In this document: piece after piece, positions 6,107-23,753 of the stretch
How the letters are laid out: every line of letters starts with the position of its first letter
Numbering within the stretch: the first letter of the stretch is position 1
NCBI GenBank assembly: GCA_947626755.1
Contig: CANQTP010000022.1
Span: 1-41,068 of the forward strand
DNA: 41,068 nt
From: an uncultured Clostridia bacterium
GTDB lineage: Bacteria; Bacillota; Clostridia; Oscillospirales; Ruminococcaceae
Direction: 5' to 3'
Position numbers and translations under genes: made by a program
Notes under the pieces: model-generated
What the model was told of the DNA's origin: nothing
Seen by the model: only the letters and a program-made list of their open reading frames with translations
Databases searched by the model: none

Positions 6107-6190
6107 TGGTGGAAGAGGGTGGATTCGAACCACCGAAGCCGAAGCAACAGATTTACAGTCTGCCCCCTTTGGCCGCTCGGGAACTCTTCC
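6107..6190 (-). tRNA. tRNA-Tyr (GTA), CCA encoded
   Basis: The minus strand folds as a class II tRNA: acceptor GGAAGAG/CTCTTCC, anticodon loop CTGTAAA (anticodon GTA), a long variable arm, the T loop GGTTCGAATCC, and an encoded CCA at 6107-6109. Confidence 0.97.
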
Positions 6191-6213
6191 ATAGAACGAG
6201 GATAAGCATAAAA

Positions 6214-6289
6214 TGGAGCTGGTGGACGGACTCGAACCCCCGACCTGCTGATTACAAATCAGCTGCTCTACCAACTGAGCTACACCAGC
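6214..6289 (-). tRNA. tRNA-Thr (TGT), CCA encoded
   Basis: Acceptor GCTGGTG/CACCAGC, D arm AGCTCAGTTGGTAGAGC, anticodon loop with TGT, T loop GGTTCGAGTCC, and an encoded CCA at 6214-6216. It is transcribed first, followed by tRNA-Tyr 23 nt downstream. Confidence 0.97.
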
Positions 6290-19913: not shown

Positions 19914-21668
19914 ATGTTCCAGATAAAATGGATATGGGAAAATCTTAAAGGCTACCGCGGAAAATACATACTTGCCCTCTGCCTGACTGTGATCTCGCAG
20001 ATGATGTATATTTCCAACCCTGTTTTCAGTCAGCAGATAGTCGATACTTTTATCTACAGCGACAACGCCGCAGAAAATCTCCAAAACAACAGCCGCCTGC
20101 TGATAATGCTCTGCTGCGGAATGGTGCTGTTTACCCTGACAAGGACTGTTATCCAGTTCAACACCAATATGCTTTACGAAAAATGCTCTCAGGGTATGCT
20201 TGCAAAGATCAGGAATTTCCTTTTTGCCAACGTTCAGCGACAGGATATGACTTTCTACGACAGGAACCGCACAGGCGATATTATGACCCGTCTGTCAGGC
20301 GACATAGACATGGTGCGTCACAGCGTTGCATGGATCATAAAGACCCTTCTTGAAAGCCTTGTGCTTTTCACGACTACTACTATATACTTCTTCTATCTTG
20401 ACCCGCTGATGGCTCTCTGTCTGCTGGCGCTTACTCCGCTTATCTTTATTATTTCGGGAATTTTCCGCAAGGAAGTGGGTCCCAAATATGTTGCTCTCCG
20501 TGAAAAACTTTCCGATCTGAACACAAGAGCGCAGGAAAATATTGCAGGAAACCGCGTTGTACGAGCATTTGCCCGCGAGGATCACGAAATAGAACTCTTT
20601 CAGGAGAAAAACTCCGACTACGCAAAGGCAAACAAGGATTCCGCCATGACTTGGCTGAAATACTTCCCGTTTATCGAAACTACAGCGCAGGGACTTACCG
20701 TTGTTCACCTTATCGCAGGAGGATTGTTCGTTATTTCGGGACGGCTCACCATGGGCGAATTTGTAGCATTCAGCGGTCTTATCTGGACGCTTTCCAACCC
20801 TATGAGAAATGTTGGTACGCTTGTCAACGACCTGCAAAGATTCCTTGCTTCCGCTTCAAAGATAATCGAAGTTTACTATTCCCGTCCGTTTATCGTTGAC
20901 CGCGCAGACCACAAGGAAATGCCCGAACATCTTGACGGCAGCGTGGAATTCAGGAACGTTACCTTCGGTTACGGCGATAACATTGTCCTTGATGATGTAA
21001 GCTTCACCATAAATTCAGGAGAAACAGTTGCCATTATGGGCGAAACGGGTTCGGGAAAAACTTCCCTTGTGAACCTTATCCCGCGGCTTTACGATCCGCA
21101 GAAGGGCGAAGTTCTCGTTGACGGTGTAAATGTCCGCTTTATCGAGCTTGAAAAGCTCCGCAAAAACATCGGCATGGCTATGCAGGACGTTCTTCTCTGG
21201 TCGGACACCATCGAGGGAAATATTTCTTTCGGAAACAGCGATATGCCCGATGAGGACGTTTACCGCTTTGCAAAAGCTGCCGATGCGGACGGATTTATTC
21301 ACGATCTGAATGAAGGCTATGACACGATCGTCGGCGAACGGGGCGTGGGACTTTCGGGCGGACAGAAGCAGAGACTTTCCCTTGCAAGAGCGTTGGCGAT
21401 ACGTCCTGCAATACTTATTCTTGACGACACCACTTCCGCCGTGGATCTGGAAACGGAAAAGCACATTCAGGAAAATCTTGCAGACCTTGATTTCAATTGC
21501 ACAAAAATAATCATTGCACAGAGAATTTCCTCCGCCAAAGACGCGGACAAGATAATCATTCTCAAAGGCGGAAAAATTTCCGAAATGGGAACTCATGACG
21601 AACTTATTAAAAACAAGGACGGCTATTATAGGGAAATTTACGATCTCCAGCAGGGAAACATCGAGTAA
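19914..21668 (+). CDS. ABC exporter half-transporter, degenerate-NBD subunit
   Basis: 584 residues with six predicted membrane helices (~20-300) and one nucleotide-binding domain. Walker A is GETGSGKTS, the signature LSGGQ, and Walker B AILILDDTTSAVD. Asp replaces the catalytic Glu after Walker B, and the H-loop has Gln (IIIAQRISS). This is the pattern of the degenerate subunit of heterodimeric exporters such as TM287/288, BmrCD and LmrCD. The partner is encoded at 21969. The substrate could be drugs, lipids or peptides; nothing here decides it. Confidence 0.93.
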   Translation: MFQIKWIWENLKGYRGKYILALCLTVISQMMYISNPVFSQQIVDTFIYSDNAAENLQNNSRLLIMLCCGMVLFTLTRTVIQFNTNMLYEKCSQGMLAKIRNFLFANVQRQDMTFYDRNRTGDIMTRLSGDIDMVRHSVAWIIKTLLESLVLFTTTTIYFFYLDPLMALCLLALTPLIFIISGIFRKEVGPKYVALREKLSDLNTRAQENIAGNRVVRAFAREDHEIELFQEKNSDYAKANKDSAMTWLKYFPFIETTAQGLTVVHLIAGGLFVISGRLTMGEFVAFSGLIWTLSNPMRNVGTLVNDLQRFLASASKIIEVYYSRPFIVDRADHKEMPEHLDGSVEFRNVTFGYGDNIVLDDVSFTINSGETVAIMGETGSGKTSLVNLIPRLYDPQKGEVLVDGVNVRFIELEKLRKNIGMAMQDVLLWSDTIEGNISFGNSDMPDEDVYRFAKAADADGFIHDLNEGYDTIVGERGVGLSGGQKQRLSLARALAIRPAILILDDTTSAVDLETEKHIQENLADLDFNCTKIIIAQRISSAKDADKIIILKGGKISEMGTHDELIKNKDGYYREIYDLQQGNIE

Positions 21669-21673
21669 CAGAC

Positions 21674-21901
21674 AAAAAAAAGAAGTCCCTTATCAGGGAC
21701 TTCTGGGCATTTTCTTTCGGTCAGAGACCTATCCGATTGTTGGTAAATGCGCAACCATTATCAAGCTCTGTCCTGCACGGCGTATCGGAGCATTACAGGA
21801 CTTCATCACTTCACGGAACTGCTACGACTGTTAAGTTTCGTCAGCCCGACCGGAAACTCCTGTTCCCTGCATAATATGCAGCATTACTGCCGCATATTTC
21901 T
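21674..21901 (-). ncRNA. Structured small RNA, family uncertain
   Basis: The minus strand carries a complete stand-alone RNA gene of about 228 nt. A consensus promoter (TTGACT-17-TATAAT) puts the 5' end near 21901. The 3' end is an intrinsic terminator with a 9-bp stem (21696-21704 with 21681-21689) and seven Ts. Within it I see a 5' hairpin (about 21873-21896, 10 bp), a possible long-range pairing of TTTC(C)GGTC near the 5' side with GACCGAAA near the 3' side, and an internal GTCCTG...CAGGAC hairpin. No open reading frame of note lies on this strand. It is not a tRNA, tmRNA, RNase P or SRP RNA. A raiA-type RNA or a 6S RNA are the families I would test first; I cannot assign either. Confidence 0.8.
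21681..21704. terminator. Terminator hairpin of the small RNA
   Basis: AGAAGTCCC (21681-21689) pairs with GGGACTTCT (21696-21704). The T run (seven plus-strand As, 21674-21680) is on the minus strand. On the plus strand it is followed by GGGCATTTTC, so the exporter mRNA may read through. Confidence 0.88.
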
Positions 21902-21907
21902 ATTAAT

Positions 21908-21936
21908 ATTATACATCAATCGTTTTTTAAAGTCAA
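21908..21936 (-). promoter_or_regulatory. Promoter of the small RNA
   Basis: On the minus strand TTGACT (21931-21936), a 17-nt spacer and TATAAT (21908-21913). Confidence 0.88.
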
Positions 21937-21968
21937 TAGATATTTCCGATAACGGAAAGGAGAAACCT

Positions 21969-23753
21969 ATGGCAAGAAATAAATATGATATAGACGAACA
22001 GCTTGAATCCCCTTTTGACATACGGCACATGAAGCGGGCTATGGTCTACGTTTCCCGCTACAAATGGAAAATGATACTTTCCCTGTCCCTGAGCGCGGCT
22101 GCTGTAATTATCGGACTTTTCGGTCCTGTGATCACGCAGCACGCCATCGACGTTGCGATCCCAAGCGGTGACAAAAAGCAAGTCCTGCTTATGGGCGGAC
22201 TTCTCCTGCTGACTATAATTGTAAACGTTATATTCGCAACTATACGTTCTCGGATAATGACTAAAGTCGGTCAGGATATTATCTTTGACATAAGAACGGA
22301 TCTTTTTGAACATCTTCAGCGGCTTTCGTTTGAATATTACGACAGCCGTCCCCACGGAAAGATCCTTGTCCGCATAATCAACTATGTAAACAGCGTTTCC
22401 GATACCCTTTCAAACGGTATCATAACATTTATTCTGGAACTTTTCAACCTTGTTTTCATAACAGTGTTCATGTTCGCAATGCACTGGAAAATGGCGCTTG
22501 TTATACTTGCGGGCGTTCCCGTGCTGATGACTTTCATACTTATTATAAAGAATAAGCAGCGCCGCGCATGGCAGGCAGTTTCAAACAAAAGCTCCAACCT
22601 TAACGCCTATCTGCATGAAGGTATAGTCGGCGTAAAAGTTACGCAGCTTTTCTGCCGCGAAGAAGAAAACGATGCTATCTTTGCACGTCTTTCCGAAGCT
22701 TACCGCAAGGACTGGATGAGAGCCGTTACATACAACAATCTGCTGTGGCCTACAGTCGATACCATTTCCGCAACGATCTCCGCGGCAATTTATATGGTGG
22801 GACTTCTTGTCCTCGGACCCGCTTCTATTTCGCTCGGAACTATCGTGGGAATGTCGGGATACGCTTCCCGCTTCTGGCAGCCGATACTTAACCTTGCGAA
22901 CCTGTTCAACAATTTTATAAACGCAGTTTCCTACCTTGAAAGGATCTTCGAGACTCTTGACGAACCTATCCGCGTAAACGACAAGGAAAACGCGGAGGAA
23001 CTTCCGCCCATTGAGGGAAATGTCCGCTTTGACAACGTTACATTTGCCTACGATGAAAGCAAGACCGTTTTGCAGGATCTTTCATTCAGCGTCAAGAAGG
23101 GACAGAGCGTTGCCCTTGTAGGTCCTACGGGAGCGGGAAAAACTACTATTGTAAATCTTATTTCAAGATTCTATGATGTGAACAGCGGAGCAGTCCTGAT
23201 AGATGAGCATAATGTTTCCGATGTGACTTTAAAGTCACTGCGTTCGCAAATGGGAATAATGCTTCAGGACAGCGTTGTTTTCAGCGGAACTATTGCCGAT
23301 AATATCCGTTACGGAAAACTTGACGCTACCATGGACGAGATAGTCGCCGCCTGCAAGACCGTCCGCGCTGATGAGTTCATACGGGAATTTCCCAAAGGCT
23401 ACGACACCGAGATCACAGAAGGCGGCTCAACGCTTTCACAGGGACAGAAACAGCTCATTGCCTTTGCAAGAACACTTATCAGCGATCCGAAGATACTTGT
23501 CCTTGACGAAGCCACGTCCTCAATTGACGCAAAGACCGAAAAACTTCTGCAAGAAGGCTTGGAGCGGCTTCTTGAGGGAAGAACGTCCTTTATCATTGCT
23601 CACAGACTTTCCACAATACAGAACTGCGACAAGATAATGTATGTTTCCAACCTCGGCATAACCGAAAGCGGAACGCATGAAGAACTTCTTGCCAAGAAAG
23701 GCGATTACTGGAAACTCTGCAACGCACGTAACGAAACGGAAACTGCTTGTTGA
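21969..23753 (+). CDS. ABC exporter half-transporter, canonical-NBD subunit
   Basis: 594 residues from ATG 21969 with AAAGGAG upstream; the longer reading from 21747 crosses the small-RNA gene and lacks an SD. There are six membrane helices (~45-340) and an NBD with Walker A GPTGAGKTT, signature LSQGQ, Walker B ILVLDEATSSID and H-loop IIAHRLST. The catalytic Glu and His are present, complementing the degenerate partner at 19914, so the two should form one heterodimeric exporter. The signature LSQGQ deviates from LSGGQ, as often in the canonical subunit. Confidence 0.94.
   Translation: MARNKYDIDEQLESPFDIRHMKRAMVYVSRYKWKMILSLSLSAAAVIIGLFGPVITQHAIDVAIPSGDKKQVLLMGGLLLLTIIVNVIFATIRSRIMTKVGQDIIFDIRTDLFEHLQRLSFEYYDSRPHGKILVRIINYVNSVSDTLSNGIITFILELFNLVFITVFMFAMHWKMALVILAGVPVLMTFILIIKNKQRRAWQAVSNKSSNLNAYLHEGIVGVKVTQLFCREEENDAIFARLSEAYRKDWMRAVTYNNLLWPTVDTISATISAAIYMVGLLVLGPASISLGTIVGMSGYASRFWQPILNLANLFNNFINAVSYLERIFETLDEPIRVNDKENAEELPPIEGNVRFDNVTFAYDESKTVLQDLSFSVKKGQSVALVGPTGAGKTTIVNLISRFYDVNSGAVLIDEHNVSDVTLKSLRSQMGIMLQDSVVFSGTIADNIRYGKLDATMDEIVAACKTVRADEFIREFPKGYDTEITEGGSTLSQGQKQLIAFARTLISDPKILVLDEATSSIDAKTEKLLQEGLERLLEGRTSFIIAHRLSTIQNCDKIMYVSNLGITESGTHEELLAKKGDYWKLCNARNETETAC

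Follow-up and report, generated by a model that had tools for sequence, protein, structure and literature searches.

A drum RNA gene inserted between two exporter genes of a Ruminococcaceae bacterium, and the proposed role of its family as RNA antitoxin of PBECR4

The RNA gene and its identity

We analysed a stretch of 41,068 nucleotides (nt), hereafter the window, from an uncultured Clostridia bacterium of the Ruminococcaceae (contig CANQTP010000022.1 of assembly GCA_947626755.1), which carries a gene for a structured RNA on the minus strand between two genes for subunits of an ATP-binding cassette (ABC) exporter (Table 1). A preliminary description, made from the sequence alone, had proposed a complete transcription unit at 21674-21936, with a promoter, a folded RNA without a coding gene and a terminator, and our analysis bore this out. 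The promoter boxes TTGACT (21936-21931) and TATAAT (21913-21908) match the consensus at 11 of 12 positions and form the top-scoring of four promoter-like sites in 21000-22600, a number that is by itself not above chance (2.2 in shuffled sequences, standard deviation (sd) 1.4). The terminator consists of a stem of 10 pairs (21704-21681) followed by seven T; two terminator-like sites were found compared with 1.6 in shuffles of the region. The transcript 21901-21673 folds with -75.7 kcal/mol against a shuffle mean of -60.05 (sd 4.76, n=200, z -3.29), with 1 of 200 shuffles folding as well, and it contains no minus-strand open reading frame (ORF) of at least 80 amino acids (aa). The RNA gene is clearly beyond chance because it matches the drum RNA family of Rfam (RF02958) at 21702-21811(-) with an E value of 1.8e-13.

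This match, 79.4 bits against a gathering score of 43, shows the helices and k-turn region of the family, and it is near certain that the feature is a drum RNA. The covariance-model search against Rfam that the preliminary description had called for thus names the RNA, and not as one of the two families put forward there: the search of 21600-22000 up to E 10 yielded a match to neither raiA nor 6S RNA, and five further matches were sub-threshold (E 0.16 or worse) and look like chance. Drum RNA is classed by Rfam as a small RNA (sRNA) gene and was reportedly described by Weinberg et al. in 2017. The 3.3-Mb genome of the window (G000) has no Rfam drum match besides the copy studied here. Drums were present in 8 of 21 genomes of its genus and in 19 of 391 genomes of a class sample, 18 of these 19 above the family cut-off.

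We counted the named drum structure with its pseudoknots on an alignment of 69 drum matches, 65 of them distinct (A4). On this alignment 88.4% of cells were paired, compared with 69.0% for shuffles and no more than 43.7% when the structure was slid. Pseudoknot PK1 joins the P2 loop with a downstream stretch, and all five of its pairs change on both sides with 92.9% of cells paired among the 65 distinct drums. In pseudoknot PK2 both sides change in all three core pairs, for which 76.4% of cells were paired, with two further pairs reaching just 57.4%. PK1 is the least biased of the counted helices, since the model used to fit A4 includes P1, P2, P4 and PK2 and has no PK1. The drum k-turn has been found to fold with Mg2+ and to bind L7Ae in vitro (PMC8191799).

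Between promoter and drum core lies a 5' domain of 90 nt, which most drums of the genus and some of other Clostridia have. By eye it was seen in 10 of the 12 drum loci of the genus (L001, L003-L013), partially in L012 and not in L008 and L011, and flanks read by eye outside the window's family showed a shorter 5' hairpin in its place. For 14 sequences selected by eye, which represent the genus plus four other loci (alignment A6), RNAalifold predicted 18 pairs, 11 of them with pair-keeping changes on both sides; all six pairs of hairpin B were intact in all 14 sequences, four of the six through changes. Structure with compensatory changes in relatives, which the preliminary description had named as a check, is thereby present in the drum core as well as in the 5' domain.

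Table 1. Features of the drum locus in the window.
Feature	Position	Strand	Details
Sigma-70 promoter TTGACT-17-TATAAT	21908..21936	-	11/12 consensus matches; same promoter role in drum loci next to PBECR4
5' domain, outside the Rfam drum model	21812..21901	-	A6 alignment, 14 sequences
Hairpin A of 5' domain	21873..21898	-	fold of transcript and A6 consensus
Hairpin B of 5' domain, GGGAAC-AGGA-GUUUCC	21852..21867	-	A6
Hairpin C of 5' domain, loop GAAACUUAACA	21818..21845	-	A6; poor fit in 2/14 (L012, L094a)
Drum RNA core, Rfam RF02958	21702..21811	-	79.4 bits, model positions 1-112 (full length)
Drum helix P2 and loop	21770..21801	-	A4: changes on both sides in 12/12 P2 pairs
Pseudoknot PK1 span	21733..21788	-	21788-21784 (CCGAU) pairs with 21737-21733 (AUCGG)
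Pseudoknot PK2 span	21704..21752	-	21752-21746 pairs with 21710-21704
Intrinsic terminator, 10-bp stem and seven T	21673..21704	-	overlaps final 3 nt of Rfam match
ABC exporter subunit 1 (context)	19914..21668	+	PF00664 and PF00005
ABC exporter subunit 2 (context)	21969..23753	+	PF00664 and PF00005; start 21969, not 21747 as in the ORF list

Linkage of drum RNAs with PBECR4 genes

Among 35 drum loci found with the Rfam model, a coding sequence for a PBECR4 protein begins at most 70 nt after the drum in 17, and all five drum-adjacent proteins that were tested matched PF18813 (PBECR4) with 98-137 bits at a cut-off of 27. The other 18 loci showed no PBECR4 match right after the drum; among them, L024 has a 38-aa remnant and L035 offers only 64 nt to judge. 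For the reverse direction, 83 PBECR4 loci were fetched with ten drum-linked proteins (78 from genome contigs, the best 80 of 96 relatives having been taken, one from a viral contig and four from 21 plasmid matches) and searched with a drum model that had been derived from 25 drums. A drum was located at most 150 nt upstream in 76 of the 83 loci, and all 84 drum-model matches at PBECR4 loci were on the strand of the gene. The linked loci include Treponema, Lactobacillus, the viral contig, and plasmids of Enterococcus and S. suis. Three of the seven unlinked loci are truncated by the start of the contig (L097, L115, L116), two are without a drum (L122, L130), one has a drum match that overlaps the protein match (L139) and one has its nearest drum 1.5 kb upstream (L083).

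This sample leans towards linkage, as its query proteins were taken from drum loci. A fairer sample is given by 29 PBECR4 places found in the class sample by Pfam alone: 11 had a strong drum, seven a weak drum-like match, seven a tandem repeat and four neither (L047, L049, L061, L062). The weak matches comprise six of 17-32 bits and the drum by the L065 fragment (32 bits), the weakest of them (L059, E 0.067) being possibly due to chance. Taking both directions together, we regard the link between drum and PBECR4 as almost certainly real. In our literature search we found nothing that connects the two, although a published link is possible as preprints and most subscription papers were outside the search. 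No paper was found on "PBECR4" or on "drum RNA" with "toxin", and the mentions of drum that were found treat the RNA, in the accessible text, as an example of a fold or a k-turn.

At seven loci the PBECR4 frame is truncated (70-145 aa) next to a drum of 72-87 bits (L084, L106, L120, L136, L142, L143, L144), showing that the protein decays while the drum RNA stays. Two PBECR4-drum pairs on Enterococcus plasmids lie beside TIR/AAA genes (L148) or an AbiH gene (L149), as in defence islands. Pairs in metagenome-assembled genomes named Treponema (L096, L102), outside Bacillota, point to horizontal transfer. Six loci (L101, L113, L125, L129, L153, G013:C164) each harbour at least two drums close together, only some of which adjoin PBECR4.

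Operon layout and the predicted toxin

In a survey of 75 drum-PBECR4 pairs, with expectations taken from base shuffles, a promoter of at least 9/12 matches was present at most 170 nt before the drum in 74 pairs (23.2 expected) and a terminator-like hairpin between drum and PBECR4 in 52 (3.8 expected). Perfect 12/12 promoter hexamers were found in 55 pairs, mostly 33-36 nt before the drum. Longer distances from -10 box to drum were seen in L125, L138 and L140 (82-83 nt, with a longer 5' domain), in L145 (94 nt) and in the window (96 nt). A second promoter in the gap between drum and PBECR4 was found in two of the 75 pairs. As a family, drum-PBECR4 loci therefore show the arrangement described for type III toxin-antitoxin (TA) systems (PMC5086642), in which a single promoter is followed by an RNA, a Rho-independent terminator and then the toxin gene, here a predicted one. 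The drum also shares the pseudoknotted nature of type III antitoxins, as the five covarying pairs of PK1 indicate, and would act as the antitoxin of the pair; it is a single unit and lacks their tandem short repeats.

A structure model of PBECR4 (47 sequences) reached a mean pLDDT (predicted local distance difference test score) of 93.1. His43 is invariant across the 47 sequences (alignment A3) and lies within helix 40-44 of the model, and a conserved histidine in an N-terminal helix is the active-site rule given for PBECR proteins (PMC5512222). By PF18813 membership and this modelled helix histidine PBECR4 qualifies as a predicted BECR-fold RNase, with putative endoribonuclease (endoRNase) activity. 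A Foldseek search of the model against PDB gave no usable match, and the VIA fold search returned weak rows only, mostly RelE/HigB/ParE, RegB and contact-dependent inhibition (CDI) toxins. The PBECR4 profile found no relative among PDB sequences, its one match being an unrelated nanobody (E 0.26), and PBECR4 was recognized neither by PADLOC (3 proteins) nor by NCBIfam (3 and 7 proteins).

A distant PBECR4 clade with repeat leaders

A tree was computed from 71 drum-linked PBECR4 proteins, five beside weak drums and nine whose genes lack a drum; eight of these nine formed one clade with support 1.0, with L062 placed elsewhere. The leaders of six of these genes (L046, L048, L051, L052, L053, L064) match themselves at shifts of 52-65 nt better than 60 of 60 shuffles. 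For L041 the repeat is marginal, with 1 of 60 shuffles as good, and is also visible by eye; by the same comparison no repeats were found in the leaders of L047 and L062. None of the nine leaders had an Rfam match, and the seven repeat leaders represent a candidate new RNA family. The leader of L061 contains two tandem units, each able to form an H-type pseudoknot, in which stem 2 differs and yet pairs in both; its self-match exceeded 60 of 60 shuffles by a narrow margin. The classic type III antitoxin consists of tandem pseudoknots located ahead of an RNase gene. Repeats and pseudoknots in front of distant PBECR4 genes would accordingly mark PBECR4 as a type III-like toxin family, with drum being its antitoxin in another form, and by this analogy the repeat leaders are our best, indirect evidence for such a role.

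Drums in viral records

Of 59 stretches picked out by three patterns in IMG/VR, the drum model verified 14 as drum, and none of the remaining 45 had a match above 16 bits. Together with L146, found via its PBECR4, this makes 15 viral drum records of up to 184 kb. Thirteen of these are without PBECR4, although none is rated 90% complete and they may be fragments; several are near-duplicates, leaving about six groups. In 11 of the 13 the examined stretch contained tRNA genes, with none in L219 and L229. L153 carries three drums beside tRNA genes, and L215 (IMGVR_UViG_3300022753_000048) one drum among 28 tRNA genes, one of which has the anticodon CTA. L225, which encodes portal and terminase, has a drum with a PBECR4 gene that carries a stop. 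In genome G076 a drum (L029) follows an endolysin-type gene, and in G295 four drums follow genes whose C-terminus looks similar. When 50,697 phage records were searched by tblastn with a single PBECR4 protein as query, no match was obtained. The 1.2-kb drum/tRNA stretch of L153 matched 518 phage records by blastn, and among the 20 matches listed most lay on annotated tRNA genes and none on an annotated drum.

Viral drums without PBECR4 argue for action of the RNA in trans. Mimicry of an antitoxin by a phage is known from ToxIN, for which phage PhiTE carries a pseudo-ToxI (PMC3475682). The position of viral drums among tRNA genes is a hint that PBECR4 may cut tRNA.

Proposed function and alternatives

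We consider it likely that drum is the RNA antitoxin of PBECR4 and that the window holds a stand-alone copy, inserted in antisense into an exporter operon. The antitoxin mechanism of the drum family, taken for itself, is likely, judging from the layout of the loci and by analogy with known systems. The family would be the RNA half of a TA module and PBECR4, as a predicted BECR-fold endoRNase, its toxic protein half. From the single promoter abundant drum RNA would be made, and rare read-through of the terminator would give little PBECR4 mRNA; the folded drum would bind and thereby neutralise PBECR4, as in type III TA systems and AbiF/RCd22. The window gene, with promoter, 5' domain, core with two loop pseudoknots and k-turn, and terminator, would be a self-contained drum unit that most likely acts in trans and renders the cell tolerant of PBECR4 arriving by plasmids, prophages or islands. 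Large phages would be protected in an equivalent manner by their orphan drums.

At the window locus no toxin gene lies downstream, so that the RNA stands alone, and neither Pfam nor the profile of 47 sequences (E up to 10) detected PBECR4 in G000 or in G018, a genome with the same insertion. These two represent closely related species, and it is on this pair that the following comparison rests. The RNA (21705-21901) differs at 0 of 197 sites, whereas the genes on either side differ at 118 of 458 (26%) of their fourfold sites (p 2.7e-21), and the promoter hexamers are kept. The remainder of the unit differs at just 5 of 97 sites, and this low divergence makes some recent exchange of the whole unit possible, although within it the RNA is still better kept (p 0.004). 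Such an exchange could explain why the unit is more conserved than fourfold sites if a drum-PBECR4 module had been lost and the copy were its functionless relic or passenger, an explanation in line with the missing PBECR4 and with decayed PBECR4 genes being common next to drums. We consider it unlikely given the complete identity of the RNA at 26% fourfold divergence, the kept hexamers and the lack of a detectable PBECR4 remnant in the genome. Whether the window copy acts as a stand-alone antitoxin at present is about an even call. Another orphan drum, L007, is followed after 84 nt by a small gene that resembles one for an MNT-type nucleotidyltransferase.

Drum might instead be a cis-acting leader, a riboswitch-like attenuator in which a signal opens the terminator and PBECR4 is made, orphans being relics. 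That 73 of 75 pairs lack a second promoter and 52 have a terminator would suit this, but the window drum is bounded by a promoter and a terminator of its own, is followed by no gene on its strand and has an identical sequence in two species. Drums also occur in the 13 possibly fragmentary viral records without PBECR4, the other PBECR4 clade has tandem-repeat RNAs at the equivalent place, and Rfam classes drum as an sRNA gene, all of which leaves a leader rather improbable. Still less probable is another cell component as the chief partner of drum, with PBECR4 exploiting or targeting the RNA. The 18 of 35 Rfam-found drums without PBECR4 right after them and the in vitro binding of L7Ae by the drum k-turn (PMC8191799) would be compatible with this, but from the PBECR4 side linkage is near-universal, if in a biased sample, and the distant clade has its repeat RNAs.

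The setting of the drum in the window was as first described, both flanking genes encoding PF00664 and PF00005 domains. The coupling of the RNA to the exporter by antisense transcription that had been suggested from this position found no support. Orthologues of subunit 2 with at least 84% identity are present in 20 of 21 genomes of the genus, and a drum is inserted at the exporter site in two of these 20 loci (G000, G018); in the other 18 the drum model found none, and their spacers are short in 12 cases and roughly 100-200 nt in six. Exporter genes flank only the same two among the 35 drum loci (about 1.5 kb examined per side). The insert being missing at 18 of 20 sites and the exporter at 33 of 35 drum loci, the antisense position looks like an incidental by-product of insertion into the exporter operon, and regulation of the operon by the RNA, for which its place between both subunits speaks, is very improbable. 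Elsewhere in the window, a pair of genes for tRNA-Tyr and tRNA-Thr lies at 6107-6289 (-).

Relation to known systems and implications

The window copy matches the drum family over its full length, and differs from it in the additional covarying 5' domain and in its orphan state; for the family, we describe a partner gene family, PBECR4, and two loop pseudoknots. With the type III systems ToxIN, CptIN and TenpIN (PMC5086642) drum-PBECR4 shares a single promoter, a pseudoknotted RNA, a Rho-independent terminator and a small gene for a predicted endoRNase, and with ToxIN also the existence of a phage-borne RNA mimic (PMC3475682). It differs from them in its putative toxin, PBECR4, whose profile matches no related PDB sequence, and in its RNA, which is one compact molecule of about 110 nt instead of short repeats, such repeats being found in the distant PBECR4 clade. 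The abiF-motif RNA (RF03085) of AbiF/RCd22 is likewise a computationally found RNA that lies, with a promoter and a terminator, ahead of a toxic gene, and is reported to act in cis and in trans (PMC12373285). There, the protein belongs to another family, and two short motifs contrast with the single fold of drum.

The chances are even that drum and PBECR4 constitute a widespread, unrecognized TA and phage-defence system, whose lone antitoxin would serve in the window as a chromosomal vaccine against PBECR4 that enters the cell and, in tRNA arrays of large phages, as counter-defence. If this is true, drum, so far just an sRNA gene in Rfam, would acquire a partner gene, a defined operon arrangement and orphans carried by phages, and thereby become a testable TA system. 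The logic of type III systems would extend beyond ToxN to another family of toxins, and drum would be a case of an RNA antitoxin that is retained alone by hosts and phages.
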